A DNA stretch of 64,000 nt from assembly GCA_017445755.1 (NCBI GenBank), contig JAFSSE010000004.1, positions 1 to 64,000 on the forward strand. The letters are read 5' to 3'. This document shows, piece by piece, positions 305-49,923 of the stretch (its first letter is position 1; each line of letters begins with the position of its first letter). The notes below the pieces were generated by a model that ran no database searches, was not told where the DNA came from, and saw only the letters and a list, made by a program, of their open reading frames with translations. The position numbers and the translations under genes were made by a program. Source of the DNA: Bacteroidales bacterium. GTDB taxonomy: Bacteria; Bacteroidota; Bacteroidia; Bacteroidales; UBA932.

Positions 305-1414
305 TCAATCCGCGAGGATGCCCATGAGCTCTGTATTGAACCAAATGAATTCCTTGCCGACCTTATCCTTGCTGAGCATTCCAAGAGATTCCAACTCCGT
401 CAAATACTTCTTTGCCGTATTGATGCTTTTAATTTTATCCGAAAGCAGGTTCTTCGGCCTGATGTAGGGTTGCTCAAACAATTTTGGAATGTCCATTCTG
501 GCTACTGCAAGCCTGTTTTCCAGCATGATTTCGCGTGTTTTTTCCATCAGGGCTTTTATACGCAAAATCTTGTCCGTGGTATATTCTGCGGTTTGCGAAA
601 CCGCCTCCAGCATATACATGATCCAAGGTTTCCAAAGCATGGTTCCTGTTATGCCATTGAGCCTATTGTAATACTCATCTTTATTCTGGAGTATATAGGC
701 GCTGAGATACAGGATAGGCAAATCCAGCAGTTTTTTTTGTTTCAGATACAGCAGGCAGAGAACTCTTCCGGTTCGGCCGTTACCGTCCCGGAAAGGGTGT
801 ATGGCCTCGAACTGATAGTGAGACATTGCCATTTTCAGGAGCGGATCAATGGGGTACTTTTCATCATCATTCAAGAAATCCAGCAGTTCTGCCATTTTTT
901 TCTCCACCACACCTTTACCTCTTGGCGGCGTGTAAACGGTTTCGGCCACCAGAGACCCCCAGCCTCTTTTTTTTATTACAACTTCTGCCTGATACGGGCG
1001 GATCCCGTCATGGGAACGTTTAATCTCGCGGTAAACGTCTATTATGGTTCCGAGAGTCATGGACTTGTTGGCCACTATGTCTTGATACCCCTTCCAAAGA
1101 GCCTCCCTATAGTGTAGAATCTCTTTGGCGGGACCTTCCATATAATCGTCTTCCTGATATGACAAAGAACGGTAGAGTTCGTCATCAGTGGTGAATATAT
1201 TCTCTATGGCACTACTGGCCTTAGCCTCGCGGAGAGCTATGGTGTTGACAAATATTGATTGGTTGGGAAGCATAGATGCCAATCCTTTTAATTCTGCCAG
1301 ACGCCGGCTGGCCAGCGTAAGCTTGTCAACAAGCTCTTTGTCTTGATACAGGGCTGTTGCCGGGGGTAGAGGTGGCAGTTGATTGTAAGGTGTGTTACGG
1401 TCGTATGCGTCCAT
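305..1414 (-). CDS. Fic family protein (AMPylase-type, class II, with C-terminal winged helix)
   Basis: The 369-residue product has the full Fic core motif HPFRDGNGRTGR at residues 206-217, whose histidine is the catalytic base for transfer of AMP to a target hydroxyl. An N-terminal inhibitory helix motif S67-x3-E71-N72 (within SSAIEN) marks a class II Fic protein that holds itself inactive. The N-terminal part matches the Fic_N region, and the last 90 or so residues resemble the winged-helix domain common in such proteins. It is cytosolic and its target is unknown. It sits alone in an accessory patch next to IS debris. The ATG at 1414 follows a promoter with a large inverted repeat (1438-1484), and the C-terminal DNA-binding-like domain makes autoregulation plausible. 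Confidence 0.9.
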   Translation of the reverse strand: MDAYDRNTPYNQLPPLPPATALYQDKELVDKLTLASRRLAELKGLASMLPNQSIFVNTIALREAKASSAIENIFTTDDELYRSLSYQEDDYMEGPAKEILHYREALWKGYQDIVANKSMTLGTIIDVYREIKRSHDGIRPYQAEVVIKKRGWGSLVAETVYTPPRGKGVVEKKMAELLDFLNDDEKYPIDPLLKMAMSHYQFEAIHPFRDGNGRTGRVLCLLYLKQKKLLDLPILYLSAYILQNKDEYYNRLNGITGTMLWKPWIMYMLEAVSQTAEYTTDKILRIKALMEKTREIMLENRLAVARMDIPKLFEQPYIRPKNLLSDKIKSINTAKKYLTELESLGMLSKDKVGKEFIWFNTELMGILAD

Positions 1415-1437: not shown

Positions 1438-1484
1438 TGTCAAAAATAGCAAAATTTTGACAGAAACAAAAGAATCTGTCAAAA
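1438..1484 (-). promoter_or_regulatory. fic promoter overlapped by TGTCAAAA/TTTTGACA repeats
   Basis: On the minus strand a -7 box TATTTTTG (1448-1441) is preceded, 18 bp upstream, by a TTTG (1470-1467). The TTTG lies in the 10-bp spacer of a perfect inverted repeat, TTTTGACAGA (1455-1464) and TCTGTCAAAA (1475-1484). A third copy of the half-site, TGTCAAAA, lies at 1438-1445 over the -7 box. Any protein binding the repeat would cover both promoter elements. Confidence 0.6.
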
Positions 1485-1590
1485 AAAACAATCTCCCCGG
1501 ATTCAAGTACGAAACGTGGGCTCTCGACATTCGCCGGGTTAAACAATAAGGGGCTATCTTTCCCGCAAGATAAGGATTCCTGACGATAAT

Positions 1591-1628
1591 AACAAAAAGA
1601 AACCGCCCCTCGCTGTGCGGGAGGCGGT
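1591..1628 (-). terminator. Intrinsic terminator after the FISUMP gene
   Basis: Reading the minus strand, a GC-rich hairpin with outer arms ACCGCC (1628-1623) and GGCGGT (1607-1602) and a further CCGC/GCG pairing inside is followed by a T-rich tract (TTTCTTTTTG). It begins 20 bases after the stop codon at 1648. Confidence 0.75.
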
Positions 1629-1647
1629 GAAAAGGTACGCACACTTA

Positions 1648-2265
1648 TCATTTACTGCGAACAGGTCTAACTGAGTTACCAACAAAGCGGTTGGCGGCCC
1701 TCAAAACCACGTCGCTCTCAAGGCAAAGCGAGTAAGCACCGTCCGGGGCAACGGTAGACAAAGTTGAAGACCAGTAGAAACCACGTTGTTCATAATAGAA
1801 GAGATAAGGGTTTGTGAACGTTCTGAATCCACCGTATGGCAGGAAAATGCTTTTCCCGTTAACTTTATATGTAATCTGAAGTCCGGGTTTCCCGTTTAAT
1901 GATTTATGCTCCCACTGATAATTGGAATTCTCCCTGGTCTGTAAAAGCTCATTCAACTCTCTTTCAGTCGGCATTCTCATCTGCCCAGAAGATTTAATAT
2001 AAGCGATGTCGTCTGCGATCTCAAGTTGCGCATTATTGTCTACACGTCCGAAATCTTCGTTATAGTTGTATTTGGTAAGCTTATTATAATCTCCCTCAGA
2101 CCATTTATAATTATCCCAAGACATTTTATCCTTGGTCTCAATTTCTCCCCATGCATAAAGGTCGCCAGTTTCTTCTGGTTTGGTTGCTCCTACATTGCAT
2201 TCCCCCCAGTAAACACTTAGCCCGATATCATGCAACAAACTCTGATTGCTCGGATGAAAATGCAT
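1648..2265 (-). CDS. FISUMP-domain protein, 5'-truncated and fused to a foreign leader
   Basis: From about residue 14 the product is a typical FISUMP domain (Fibrobacter succinogenes major paralogous domain): it opens with IGLSVYWGECNVGATKPEE and DLYAWGE, carries the MRMPTERELNELL segment, and closes with GFYWSST and NSVRPVRSK. Proteins of this family in Bacteroidales are normally secreted or lipid-anchored and begin with a signal peptide and often Ig-like domains. Here there is no signal peptide: the first 12 residues are an out-of-frame reading of an ATPase gene remnant (2228-2305). The domain core is intact, but export is unlikely. It may be transcribed from the ATPase remnant's promoter at 2326-2357. 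It is best regarded as a chimera or pseudogene with an intact 3' half. Confidence 0.7.
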   Translation of the reverse strand: MHFHPSNQSLLHDIGLSVYWGECNVGATKPEETGDLYAWGEIETKDKMSWDNYKWSEGDYNKLTKYNYNEDFGRVDNNAQLEIADDIAYIKSSGQMRMPTERELNELLQTRENSNYQWEHKSLNGKPGLQITYKVNGKSIFLPYGGFRTFTNPYLFYYEQRGFYWSSTLSTVAPDGAYSLCLESDVVLRAANRFVGNSVRPVRSK

Positions 2266-2305
2266 CCTTCAGCCTGCGGATTTCTTCTTTTCTGCCTATC
2301 AGCAT
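2228..2305 (-). pseudogene. N-terminal stump of an AAA ATPase gene (DUF234-like)
   Basis: An ATG at 2305 opens 25 codons reading MLIGRKEEIRRLKDAF and then SSEQSEFVA, ending at TGA (2230-2228). GR-KEE--RL-----S--SEFVAVYGRR is the start of the large Bacteroidota family of P-loop ATPases with DUF234-type C-termini, where a Walker A site follows directly. Here the frame breaks exactly where YGRRRVGKT would be expected, and FISUMP sequence takes over in another frame. Its promoter and palindrome (2313-2380) are still intact. Assignment is by recognition of the family's opening motif. Confidence 0.6.
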
Positions 2306-2312
2306 AAGTCGT

Positions 2313-2380
2313 TACATTTGTTGCCCAAATGTATTTATTTTTAGCGGAATCTGCAAATTTTTCGGCGATTCCGCTAAAAA
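2313..2380 (-). promoter_or_regulatory. Promoter of the ATPase remnant with two inverted repeats
   Basis: On the minus strand, TTTG (2357-2354), a 20-bp spacer and TACATTTG (2333-2326) form a consensus Bacteroidota promoter. The TTTG lies in the 15-bp spacer of a perfect 14-bp inverted repeat, TTTTTAGCGGAATC (2338-2351) and GATTCCGCTAAAAA (2367-2380). The -7 box is itself half of a second perfect repeat, TACATTTG (2313-2320) and CAAATGTA (2326-2333). The start codon follows at 2305. Confidence 0.65.
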
Positions 2381-2409
2381 TAGCGCCGTTCATTGGCGGC
2401 GAAGCCGCC

Positions 2410-2512
2410 TTATTTGTGGACATGCAGCTGCTCGGCAATCTGACTTTTGTTGAGTCCTGCTTTCAGGAAAGCAGAAATTTCGTACCTCTTGGTCGCTGGT
2501 AAGGTGCTTCAT
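2410..2512 (-). pseudogene. IS30-family transposase, frameshifted N-terminal fragment
   Basis: Starting at ATG 2512, the first codons give MKHLTSDQ. After one extra base the sequence continues in the next frame as RYEISAFLKAGLNKSQIAEQ then LHVHK and a stop at 2412-2410. This is the helix-turn-helix head of IS30 transposases (normally continuing -STISREIKRN). The gene is therefore both frameshifted near codon 9 and cut off after about 33 codons. A TACTTTTG -7-like box lies at 2550-2543. A GGCGGC-TTC-GCCGCC hairpin follows the cut. No terminal repeats of the element were identified. Confidence 0.6.
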
Positions 2513-2682
2513 AATGTGACTGAGTTTTGGCGAATGAGGCCACAAAAGTAAGCAATCTTATCAGCACCGGAGATGTCAATCCTTTCGGCATCTCTTTTTC
2601 CGCTTTTGTAACTACTTGTTTTTCAGTCACCTTTAACAAAAGTTGCGTTTAAAAGTTGAAAACGGCGGGTTTCAACGATTCC

Positions 2683-2880
2683 TCAGCACCCGACTGGACG
2701 CTGAAATTTGAAATACTCGAGGTATATCCCGGGGACAGGTATGCCGATACCGTAATCACCGAATTGTTCTTCGACGGAATAGATGTTCATTGAGAAAATA
2801 ACCTCTCCGTTCCGGCCGTTATATATCGTGATTGGATCCCCGTGCATAAAGGTGATGACATAGTTGTACTGGTTGCACAA
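2683..2880 (-). CDS. Hypothetical small ORF, possibly a gene remnant
   Basis: A 65-codon frame that would need a TTG start; the open frame extends upstream to a TAG at 2952-2950 without any ATG. The translated text is not obviously random (FMHGDPITIYNGRNGEVIFS), with aromatic and charged residues in a plausible protein composition, but no family was recognised. It lies just downstream of the ATPase gene on the same strand, separated by 82 bp. It may be the 3' end of a gene destroyed by the rearrangements in this patch. The 170 bp between it and the IS30 fragment show nothing else. Confidence 0.25.
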   Translation of the reverse strand: MCNQYNYVITFMHGDPITIYNGRNGEVIFSMNIYSVEEQFGDYGIGIPVPGIYLEYFKFQRPVGC

Positions 2881-2962
2881 CGTCTCCAGACTGGCGATTC
2901 TCGCCTCATGGTCGTTAATCTTGTTCCGTTTCGGTGAATCTGGGAAATTCTAACTATACTGT

Positions 2963-4321
2963 TCATTCGATGCCTTCTTTTGCCTCAATGCAGAATACCG
3001 CATAAAGCGGAATGGCCTTGATTTCACCCACAAACCCGAAGTTCTTTCCGGAGATTCGGTACGCGAAAGGGCAGTTGTAGGTCTTCTTGAAATAGTTCAT
3101 GCTGATGGCATCTACCTTCCTGCCTTTCTTGACCTCTACAGGAATTACATCCAATCCGTCCTGCAGGATGTATTCCACTTCCTGAGTATTATCATTTTTC
3201 CAATAACGAAGCGTTATGCCATTGGCAGAGAGTGCCTGGGCCACGTAGTTCTCAGCGACCGAACCAAGGAACGTGTTCTCGGTGTCGATGGAACTCAGCA
3301 GTAGCTGGGCAGGCATTTGCGCCATTGTGTTCAGCAGGCCAATATCGGACATATAAATCTTGAAGTCGCTGTCATCTTCCTGGGCCGAGAGGGGAATGAA
3401 ACCATGTGATATCAGCTTGCATTTATGTACTATCCCGGCCAGTATGAGCCACTCAATGGCTTCACCGAAGATTTTGGCGGTTCCGCCCTTTTGTGCGAGC
3501 TTGTACTGGAACTTGCGGTTCTCTTTGGCCAGTTGAGCCGGGATGGAATTGAAACACGCTCTGATCTTTACGGTGGTTGCCGGTTTTGCGTATTTGGCCA
3601 TATCGGCATTGTAACCAATCAAGATGGACTGCTGAACGGCTCTGCACTCCAGAAAACTATGGGTCTGGGCGTATTTACCTACACTTTCGGGCATGCCTCC
3701 GACTATCAGGTAGCGCTGGTACAGGTCAAGCGCCATCTGATGAACAGAAGCCGGCATTGCCTCATTTGAGTTGAAGTGGCTGCGGATATCCTGGGCAAGG
3801 ACATCCATATTGATGGCCCATAGGAACTCTTCAAAATCCATAGGGTAGAGGCGGAGTTCGTCCACCTTGCCTACAGGATAAGAGAACTCCTCTTCTTCCT
3901 GTTTTTCCCTATCTTCTTCTACGGGCTTGTTTCCCTGATTAACAGCCACGCCCAGAAGGCTGCCGGCAGCCACAATGTCATACTGAGGATAATCCTCCTG
4001 AAAATATTTGAGAGCAAGCAGCGCCTGTTTGCAGTCCTGAATCTCATCCAGAATAACCAGCGTCTCGTGAGGGACAATTCGCTCATTATAGATAGTTTCC
4101 AGATAAGCAATAATCTCCAAAGGATTGATATTGTCCTTGAGGAAATTGCGAACATCAGGAAACAAATCAAGACTGACCTTGATATAATTCTTATAGTGCT
4201 CCCGCCCGAATTCTTCCAAAATATATGTTTTGCCAACTTGGCGGGCTCCCTGAAGTATGAGGGGCTTATGATCCGGCCTGTTCTTCCAGTCTATGAGCCA
4301 CTGAGTGATTTTTCTTTTCAT
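2963..4321 (-). CDS. ATP-binding protein, AAA_14 + DUF4143
   Basis: A 452-residue P-loop ATPase. The Walker A motif GARQVGKT is at residues 25-32 and Walker B LVILDEIQ at 88-95, as in AAA_14. The C-terminal DUF4143 region ends in a PD-(D/E)xK-like nuclease fold with E-V-E-Y and VEVKKGRK as the probable metal-site residues. Such genes are present in many divergent copies in Bacteroidota genomes; their role is unsettled, with defence or mobile-element functions proposed. The start was set at the ATG at 4321, giving the usual MKRKI opening; the longer frame back to 4360 would run into the promoter. It stands alone, preceded by its own palindromic promoter (4348-4408). Confidence 0.88.
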   Translation of the reverse strand: MKRKITQWLIDWKNRPDHKPLILQGARQVGKTYILEEFGREHYKNYIKVSLDLFPDVRNFLKDNINPLEIIAYLETIYNERIVPHETLVILDEIQDCKQALLALKYFQEDYPQYDIVAAGSLLGVAVNQGNKPVEEDREKQEEEEFSYPVGKVDELRLYPMDFEEFLWAINMDVLAQDIRSHFNSNEAMPASVHQMALDLYQRYLIVGGMPESVGKYAQTHSFLECRAVQQSILIGYNADMAKYAKPATTVKIRACFNSIPAQLAKENRKFQYKLAQKGGTAKIFGEAIEWLILAGIVHKCKLISHGFIPLSAQEDDSDFKIYMSDIGLLNTMAQMPAQLLLSSIDTENTFLGSVAENYVAQALSANGITLRYWKNDNTQEVEYILQDGLDVIPVEVKKGRKVDAISMNYFKKTYNCPFAYRISGKNFGFVGEIKAIPLYAVFCIEAKEGIE

Positions 4322-4347
4322 AGCAATTACAGCCATTAATTCCCAGG

Positions 4348-4408
4348 CAAATATAATCAAAAACTATGAAAAAGTCACAAAATTTTGATTTTTTCATAGT
4401 TTTCGATT
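4348..4408 (-). promoter_or_regulatory. ATPase promoter with 19-bp imperfect inverted repeat
   Basis: A minus-strand -7 box TATATTTG lies at 4355-4348. A TTTG at 4381-4378, 22 bp upstream, sits in the spacer of a perfect 14-bp inverted repeat, AAAACTATGAAAAA (4360-4373) and TTTTTCATAGTTTT (4390-4403). After one mismatch the arms extend by AATC/GATT to 4355 and 4408. The loop contains a smaller palindrome, CAAAATTTTG (4378-4387). The layout parallels 2313-2380 and 1438-1484, although the arm sequences differ. Confidence 0.6.
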
Positions 4409-20977: not shown

Positions 20978-21581
20978 ATGATTCCGTATGGAATTCGAGA
21001 TAGCGGAGGAGTTCTTCCGCTATCTTTTTTCGCTGTGACCCATTAAGGGGAAGAAGGAGGGCGTCGGCGAATGAAGAGGTAAGGAGGCCGTCAATCGAGC
21101 GGAGGTCATCGCCGGCGAAAGGGGCCAGATCCAGGGTGGTCGGACGGAAGCCAAGGGCTCCGGAGAGTTCCAGGAGGAAACGGAGGTGGAAGTTACTCCA
21201 GTCGCTTTCCAGGGCATCCAGGGCGAGGATGCTTCCGAGAAGCCACTCGTACAGCCCGTCCTCGTTGGCTCCGTCCTTTAGCGTACGGAAAAGGACTTCG
21301 CTCATGAAAAGGGCTATGGTGTTTTTGTAAAGGTTGTCTCTTATCCCTCCGAGGGGCTCCAGGGCAAGGAAGCCGCGGGCGTTCCAGAGATCTGATTTGG
21401 GATTCTGGGTTATGTCGGCTTCGAGGATATTCAGGGGCAGGAAAAGGGCCATGGAGGTTTTCTTTCCGACCCTTGTAATAAAGCTTCGCCGCCCGTATTC
21501 CCGCGATAAGGTATGCAGGATCAGGGCGTTCTCCCCATATCGGGTGGTGGAGAGGAGGATAAACTCAAGCGAAGCGGTCAT
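20931..21581 (-). CDS. recO: DNA repair protein RecO
   Basis: 216 residues, slightly short for the family. The N-terminal OB fold (LEFILLSTTRYGENALILHTL) and helical C-terminal domain (LSGALGFRPT) match RecO, which loads RecA with RecR at single-stranded gaps. The zinc-binding cysteines found in many RecO proteins are absent. Its 3' end overlaps rnr by 47 bp tail-to-tail. It lies seven bases downstream of rdgB. Confidence 0.88.
   Translation of the reverse strand: MTASLEFILLSTTRYGENALILHTLSREYGRRSFITRVGKKTSMALFLPLNILEADITQNPKSDLWNARGFLALEPLGGIRDNLYKNTIALFMSEVLFRTLKDGANEDGLYEWLLGSILALDALESDWSNFHLRFLLELSGALGFRPTTLDLAPFAGDDLRSIDGLLTSSFADALLLPLNGSQRKKIAEELLRYLEFHTESSISVRSLDVLHDVFL
20998..21030 (+). 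terminator. rnr terminator located within recO coding sequence
   Basis: A perfect 10-bp hairpin, AGATAGCGGA (20998-21007) and TCCGCTATCT (21016-21025), is followed by T6. It begins 20 bases past the rnr stop and is entirely within the antisense recO frame, where the same bases encode KKIAEELLRYL. Confidence 0.85.
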
Positions 21582-43366: not shown

Positions 43367-43403
43367 AAAAAAAGCGGACCTTCGTAAAAAGGCCCGCTTT
43401 TTT
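43367..43403 (+). terminator. Intrinsic terminator of the barrel gene
   Basis: AAAAAAGCGG pairs with CCGCTTTTTT around a GG/CC-reinforced loop, 18 bases after the stop codon. The A-tract on one side and T-tract on the other could let it act in both directions. Confidence 0.85.
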
Positions 43404-49825: not shown

Positions 49826-49923
49826 ATTTTTGTCTGAAGAAAAATACCAACCTGAAAAAGTAAAGCTTAACCCATGAAAAAATGGAAGGTGGCCAACGAT
49901 TATTGGCCACCTTCTCTTTTTTT
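49825..49923 (+). ncRNA. Possible short non-coding RNA ending in a strong hairpin
   Basis: A -7 box TATTTTTG (49825-49832) overlaps the end of the previous terminator. About 50 bases further on is a perfect 12-bp hairpin, GAAGGTGGCCAA (49885-49896), CGATTA, TTGGCCACCTTC (49903-49914), and then a T-rich tract. A transcript of about 85 bases would result. A tiny frame ATGAAAAAATGG lies before the hairpin, but no gene is evident. The -33 box is poor, so a real promoter is uncertain; the hairpin's certain role is below. Confidence 0.3.
49879..49923. terminator. Bidirectional terminator at the end of the Sus-like operon
   Basis: The perfect 12-bp hairpin at 49885-49914 has a T-rich tract on the plus side (49915-49923) and, reading the minus strand, CATTTTTTC on the other (49884-49876). 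It stops the minus-strand six-gene operon, whose last stop codon is at 49938. Confidence 0.85.

Follow-up and report, generated by a model that had tools for sequence, protein, structure and literature searches.

Repeats at the promoters of PDC-S01 and PDC-S27 ATPase genes vary with the encoded proteins and are predicted to be their cognate operators

The 64,000-nucleotide stretch analyzed here (the window; positions 1 to 64,000 of contig JAFSSE010000004.1, Bacteroidales bacterium) contains an intact ATPase gene of the DUF4143 family (PDC-S01), the remnant of an ATPase_2 gene (with intact relatives of PDC-S27) and a Fic gene, and each of the three has an inverted repeat (IR) at its promoter. 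The two ATPase genes are called live and dead, respectively. Their families are common, little-studied candidate virus-defence genes. Computation across genomes demonstrates the enrichment of repeats at such promoters, the spacing of the repeat copies, the tracking of repeat sequence with orthology, and a peak of predictive power in the winged-helix stretch of the protein. We propose, with a probability of roughly three in four, that the repeats are cognate operators. That is, each protein would bind its own half-sites through a winged helix and control its own gene.

When arms of 10 nt or longer and spacers of 3–20 nt are required, the window yields six perfect IRs, as compared with 0–3 in each of 12 local dinucleotide shuffles, and the repeats at the Fic, dead ATPase and live ATPase promoters are three of the six. 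The two ATPase IRs are the longest perfect IRs of the window; they are also the only two with arms of at least 14 nt, a class not found in the shuffles. A -7 box, the consensus of which is TAnnTTTG, adjoins each of the three IRs on the minus strand. A sequence-only reading of this DNA had pointed to these three repeats, all of which were recovered by the search for perfect IRs. The arm lengths it gave, 10 nt for Fic and 14 nt for the live ATPase, are right; the dead ATPase arms are 16 nt, not 14. The genes and promoter parts are as follows.

305–1414, minus strand: Fic protein of 369 residues with Fic_N, Fic and SoFic-like_C domains, PADLOC SoFic (open reading frame (ORF), Pfam, PADLOC E 4.1e-99).
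1439–1445, minus strand: TTTGACA box 3, which overlaps the Fic -7 box (sequence).
1441–1448, minus strand: -7 box of the Fic promoter, TATTTTTG (sequence and consensus).
1455–1484, no strand: Fic IR with arms of 10 nt (1455–1464/1475–1484) and a spacer of 10, consisting of two oppositely oriented TTTGACA boxes, 1 and 2.
2228–2305, minus strand: dead ATPase_2 remnant, an N-terminal frame of 25 codons followed by a stop (sequence and the intact relatives L234 and L235).
2326–2333, minus strand: -7 box of the dead ATPase promoter, TACATTTG (sequence).
2336–2382, no strand: dead ATPase IR with arms of 16 nt (2336–2351/2367–2382) and a spacer of 15; the same arms lie 5′ of intact L234 and L235.
2963–4336, minus strand: live AAA_14-DUF4143 ATPase (PDC-S01; Pfam, PADLOC), with a likely ATG at 4336; the start given by the ORF tool is TTG 4360.
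4348–4355, minus strand: -7 box of the live ATPase promoter, TATATTTG, kept in three orthologous promoters.
4355–4408, no strand: predicted operator of the live ATPase, with 26-nt arms that are 88% complementary (4355–4380/4383–4408) around perfect 14-nt core arms (4360–4373/4390–4403, spacer 16); the arms are kept in L184, L185 and L213.

The remaining three perfect IRs of the window, with arms of 10–12 nt, lie at 49885–49914, 43368–43403 and 20998–21025.

The live ATPase matches the PADLOC models of PDC-S01 (PDLC04786, E 1.6e-162, residues 3–450) and contains the Pfam domains AAA_14 and DUF4143. The dead remnant is 92% identical in DNA to L234 and 90% to L235 over query positions 18–161. These intact relatives belong to the ATPase_2 proteins and show weak helix-turn-helix (HTH) and DUF234-like matches, and L234 matches PADLOC PDC-S27 at E 3.1e-194. 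Beyond P-loop similarity, no solved homologue was found, and for L234 there was none. An ORF at 1648–2265 follows directly downstream of the remnant, on the minus strand like the remnant's promoter; its match to Lcl_C is weak (E 0.00015, under the cut-off).

The enrichment was measured on DUF4143 genes taken from best-first match lists, so that the counts hold among the matches listed; the sequence was sampled in 100 stretches, plus 20 of further listed matches. Upstream repeats were scored against 100 shuffles, with p ≤ 0.01 taken as significant. In the set from the window's own genus and order, 18 N-truncated genes, one gene at a contig end and 8 duplicates were dropped before counting. The 225 control promoters are those of neighbouring genes, 53 promoters touching a family gene having been left out. 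A significant repeat, direct or inverted, is found at 105 of 177 DUF4143 genes and at 13 of 225 controls, one of which is the dead ATPase's own IR; the median z is 4.4 for the family and 0.4 for the controls. A second set, spread over Bacillota, Fibrobacter, Cyanobacteria, Elusimicrobia, Akkermansia and archaea (e.g., Methanocalculus and Methanoplasma; 5 + 1 genes dropped before counting), gives 42/86 against 12/110 controls. Thus, the expectation that such elements would be much commoner here than in control promoters or shuffles is borne out.

The layout is another matter. The sequence-only reading had taken an IR centred on the -33 box as a shared architecture, whereas the 105 significant DUF4143 repeats comprise 87 direct and 18 inverted ones. 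Pitches in the direct class (n = 87) are 22–23 bp (10 genes), 32–34 bp (59), 46 bp (3), 64–68 bp (10) and other values (5); the main values correspond to roughly two or three turns of the helix, or to twice those lengths. In the multi-phylum set, 27 of 29 direct repeats have a pitch of 32–33 or 64–66 bp. The inverted layout is found again in relatives of the live ATPase, namely L265 (54% identity), L271, L274 and L276. A TAnnTTTG box is present at 81 of the 105 repeat-bearing genes, and in 64 of these 81 the repeat overlaps the promoter stretch.

For ATPase_2, the set consists of 64 genus genes related to the dead ATPase (6 loci dropped), judged by the shuffle test only, with no gene control. 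An upstream repeat reaches p ≤ 0.01 in 46 of the 64, and 41 of these 46 are inverted. The arms vary among relatives yet keep their complementarity, as in TATTTTTAGCGGAATC, TATAATTAGCGGAATCT, ATAATTTGCGGAATCG, ATTTTCTGCTAAATC and ATTTTTAGCCAAATC. In the clade nearest the dead ATPase (at least 61% identity), inspection reveals a second IR with like arms after the stop codon in 9/9 genes, 8 of which reach p ≤ 0.01. Here, the ATPase_2 gene is bracketed by two putative operators. Among the PDC-S27 relatives L345–L353, an IR whose arms are identical or similar to those upstream lies directly past the ATPase_2 stop codon (e.g., L234:67-113). Over all 64 genes, a downstream repeat is significant in 20, and in several of these its arms do not resemble those upstream. 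A second copy 3′ of DUF4143 genes is rare (4/105 at p ≤ 0.0165); L019 and L094 are exceptions, in which the upstream repeat recurs as strong copies within 120 bp past the stop codon.

The sequence of the repeat follows the protein, as had been anticipated. The live ATPase has orthologues in different surroundings, L184, L185 and L213, with identities of 84%, 83% and 87%, the last over the N-terminal 155 residues. Their DNA homology with the window begins at the outer arm (window positions 4407, 4408 and 4413). Conservation covers the two arms and the -7 box but not the spacer centre or the flanks outside the IR. Of four orthologous live-gene promoters, only that of the window has the -33 TTTG in the spacer, and for this reason a -33 box in the spacer was rejected as a shared architecture. 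On a larger scale, motif similarity correlates with protein identity over 128 DUF4143 genes (Mantel r 0.41, against a maximum of 0.083 in 1000 label permutations) and over 51 ATPase_2 genes (Mantel r 0.63, maximum 0.128 in 1000 permutations).

Which part of the protein best predicts the operator was asked with overall identity regressed out, in 21-residue windows; the region that separates the ATPase part from the nuclease part had been expected beforehand. For 153 DUF4143 genes, the best window covers residues 266–286 of the live ATPase (centre 276), with a value of 0.152 that was reached by 1 of 300 permutations. For ATPase_2, it covers residues 274–294 of L345 (centre 284), with a value of 0.274 that none of 300 permutations reached. 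The peak at residue 284 reads as the recognition helix of a winged helix; HTH_34 spans L345 residues 253–311 (E 0.0016, under the curated threshold), and single members of the ATPase_2 alignment, A2, match further HTH models. Profile comparison aligns the winged-helix regions of the two families (97.2%), and all 64 members of the DUF4143 alignment A1 match PADLOC PDC-S01 models. A self-regulating DNA-binding ATPase should have a winged-helix part and an operator that changes with it; judged from sequence, both appear to be present. Because the winged-helix stretch is the best predictor of the operator in both families, the gene product, already named as a possible binder by the sequence-only reading, is the best candidate for the protein that reads the repeat.

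The genome from which the window comes has six DUF4143 matches, five of them with an upstream region. Direct repeats 33 bp apart were seen by eye and by test at L001 and L006 (both p 0.012), L003 has three near-copies 23 bp apart (p 0.025), and L005 has an inverted repeat (p 0.037); all four differ in sequence. The L001 motif has two exact sites in the genome, both at its own promoter and 33 bp apart, and two further sites with 2 mismatches. Likewise, the two exact sites of the L006 motif are 33 bp apart at its own promoter, and four further sites have 2–3 mismatches. The motif of the window gene, AACTATGAAAAA, has 40 genome sites with at most one mismatch, 5 of them exact, as compared with 14 for the reversed control pattern; only two of the sites lie close together, those of the live ATPase IR. 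L001 and L005 lie tail to tail on contig C43 (~79.3–82.1 kb), two DUF4143 ATPase genes in ~3 kb, one with direct repeats at 33 bp and the other with inverted repeats. Another genome, G039, has 29 DUF4143 matches in 2.6 Mb and so offers a natural set of operator/protein pairs in one cell.

The Fic gene presents a different picture. PADLOC PDLC03963 (E 4.1e-99) and the Pfam domains place the window protein in SoFic, and its score is under the NCBIfam cut-off (349 versus 550 bits). Its promoter has three TTTGACA boxes, two of which form the IR. At least two TTTGACA boxes occur upstream of 7/15 Fic_N genes, as compared with 0/225 controls and 1/177 DUF4143 genes. It follows that the boxes are a trait of one Fic subgroup and are not private to one gene.

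We suggest the following mechanism. PDC-S01, PDC-S27 and Fic proteins would each bind repeated half-sites at their own promoter through their own winged-helix part. In PDC-S01, the half-sites would usually be repeated directly, at a distance of two or three helical turns, and in the window's own PDC-S01 subgroup and most PDC-S27 genes they would be inverted. Since the repeats overlap the promoter, binding would most likely repress the gene. The protein may then be released from its operator when infection activates the ATPase or the nuclease. DNA binding, the sign of regulation and release upon activation by infection are the parts of this autoregulation that we infer.

Several results weigh against reading the repeats as cognate operators. 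No repeat at p ≤ 0.01 is found at 72 of 177 DUF4143 genes in the genus and order set or at 44 of 86 in the multi-phylum set; the PF03008 (DUF234) set is weak, with repeats in 6/25; and in the Fic set the repeat test is significant in 5/15, the window Fic promoter taken alone having a p of 0.05. Relatedness inflates all counts, and the permutations do not remove it. The DUF4143 peak is modest, and 140 of 200 bootstraps place it within residues 250–300. Among single columns, residue 167 of the live ATPase ranks first, and 7 of the 25 top columns lie in 250–300, a stretch that holds 51 of the 406 tested columns. No HTH is among the 25 Pfam families shown for the 64 DUF4143 members of A1. In ATPase_2, lesser peaks lie at L345 residues 149 and 218, and residues 302–341 correlate negatively with operator similarity (-0.29 at 305), an effect as large as the peak and unexplained. 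Finally, L375, an ATPase_2 paralogue of the own genome (C43:17000-19300), has AGCGGAATC in common with the dead ATPase arms, so that cross-talk between paralogues is possible; the upstream arms of L375 are CCAGCGGAATCT, which contain AGCGGAATC. The earlier proposal that arms are unrelated from gene to gene is thus not supported as a whole: paralogue motifs do differ, but a weak common core in the PDC-S01 sites, the TTTGACA boxes of Fic relatives and the AGCGGAATC of L375 are exceptions to it.

Alternatively, a separate host regulator or nucleoid protein might read the repeats, the likeness among orthologues then reflecting shared descent only. Related genes do have upstream DNA in common by descent, and the core of the PDC-S01 sites, AAAAARTGT, is A-rich, although it is not a free discovery, because the motif search was seeded with GAAAAAGTGTA. 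With the multi-phylum core matrix, a score of at least 8 is reached at 76/112 long-class and 20/63 short-class DUF4143 genes, and also at 43/225 controls, a point in favour of a separate regulator. We nevertheless consider a host regulator improbable. The motifs differ among paralogues of one genome and recur across phyla with the gene, the live ATPase orthologues keep the arms while losing the spacer centre and the flanks, and in two families the winged-helix stretch is predictive of the motif even after overall identity is accounted for. More doubtful still is that the repeats serve a mobile unit of gene plus operator as its ends or as recognition sites, with transcription control secondary. 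The like-armed IR behind the stop codon in the clade nearest the dead ATPase would suit such a unit, as would the start of upstream homology at the IR in the live ATPase orthologues. Against it, downstream copies are rare in DUF4143 genes and attain p ≤ 0.01 at only 20 of the 64 ATPase_2 genes, several with unlike arms; the live ATPase has no downstream copy in the window; and the repeats are positioned at promoters. In addition, no empty site was found at 11 loci inspected, the LuxR-side flank having been searched in 250 genus genomes, of which 44 matched. A mobile cassette was rejected on the rarity of downstream copies in DUF4143 genes and the lack of an empty site at these loci.

Direct action of DNA or RNA hairpins, as a cruciform, attenuator or terminator, is the least credible alternative, and we give it next to no weight. 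The sequence-only reading had offered a cruciform as one possible mechanism, and all three window elements are indeed inverted. As a general mechanism, a cruciform or RNA element was rejected, since most significant DUF4143 repeats are direct and form no hairpin. In addition, the -7 box and the expected transcript start are both downstream of the window IRs, so that these IRs should not be transcribed from that promoter, and the arms of both ATPase IRs are A+T-rich and, by eye, without the T-run of an intrinsic terminator.

The reading of the repeats as cognate operators can be carried further, to a speculation that we think rather unlikely to hold. PDC-S01 and PDC-S27 might form a self-addressing repertoire, in which each paralogue, ATPase and nuclease together, is parked on its own coded site. 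Infection would displace the protein, derepressing the gene and freeing the nuclease at once. The second site 3′ of the gene in the PDC-S27 clade might close a loop or mark a self-recognizing unit, and a genome could hold dozens of orthogonal winged-helix/operator pairs.

If each gene has a coded operator, then each protein has a predicted DNA target, and promoter activity would give a readout of its on/off state. From the natural set of winged-helix/operator pairs one could learn a DNA-recognition code and build orthogonal switches. A coded operator at each gene also points to a way in which many potentially harmful ATPase-nucleases could coexist in one genome without cross-talk.

PDC-S01 is reported to be the fourth most common prokaryotic defence system, with validation pending for most PDCs (PMC12988326). 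The published sections drawn on here describe PDC-S01 and PDC-S27 by their spread and ATPase-nuclease make-up, not by their control, and the words "operator" and "promoter" do not occur in the main text of PMC12988326. The live ATPase is of the same make-up, with a PD-(D/E)XK-type domain joined to the ATPase, and the PADLOC models match it; it differs in the predicted operators found here upstream, which the cited sections do not mention. Similarly, L234, the intact relative of the dead ATPase, matches the PDC-S27 models, whereas the upstream IR, and in one clade the second IR 3′ of the stop, were not found in the portions of the literature covered. An archaeal family was described as an "AAA+ ATPase fused to HTH and RecB nuclease domains, likely involved in defense" (PMC4158269, in the excerpt covered). 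The literature covered, in part, on DUF4143, AAA_14, COG1373, STAND, DUF234 and PDC-S01/PDC-S27 yielded no description of these operators.

The STAND activators of the MalT type combine a P-loop ATPase, a DNA-binding part and repeated MalT boxes. The families considered here resemble them in having a P-loop ATPase, a DNA-binding part (predicted here) and repeated boxes. They differ in that MalT activates other genes, whereas the paired sites in the own genome are seen only at the gene's own promoter. For Fic, the nearest parallel is CccR, a Fic-HTH protein of Yersinia pseudotuberculosis which, according to the part of the report consulted, represses its own promoter via two 10-bp inverted repeats (PMC9755527). 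As described there, CccR has a Fic domain and a C-terminal HTH, with the repeats near -35 and -10. The window Fic gene likewise has an IR of about 10 bp at its own promoter. The CccR repeats have a spacer of 26 bp and another sequence, whereas the window Fic is SoFic-like with three TTTGACA boxes. Because CccR already provides a precedent for autorepression by way of a 10-bp IR, the Fic finding adds a further example to an established kind. Autoregulation via cognate operators is itself of a known kind; its spread and its coding in the PDC-S01 and PDC-S27 families look new.

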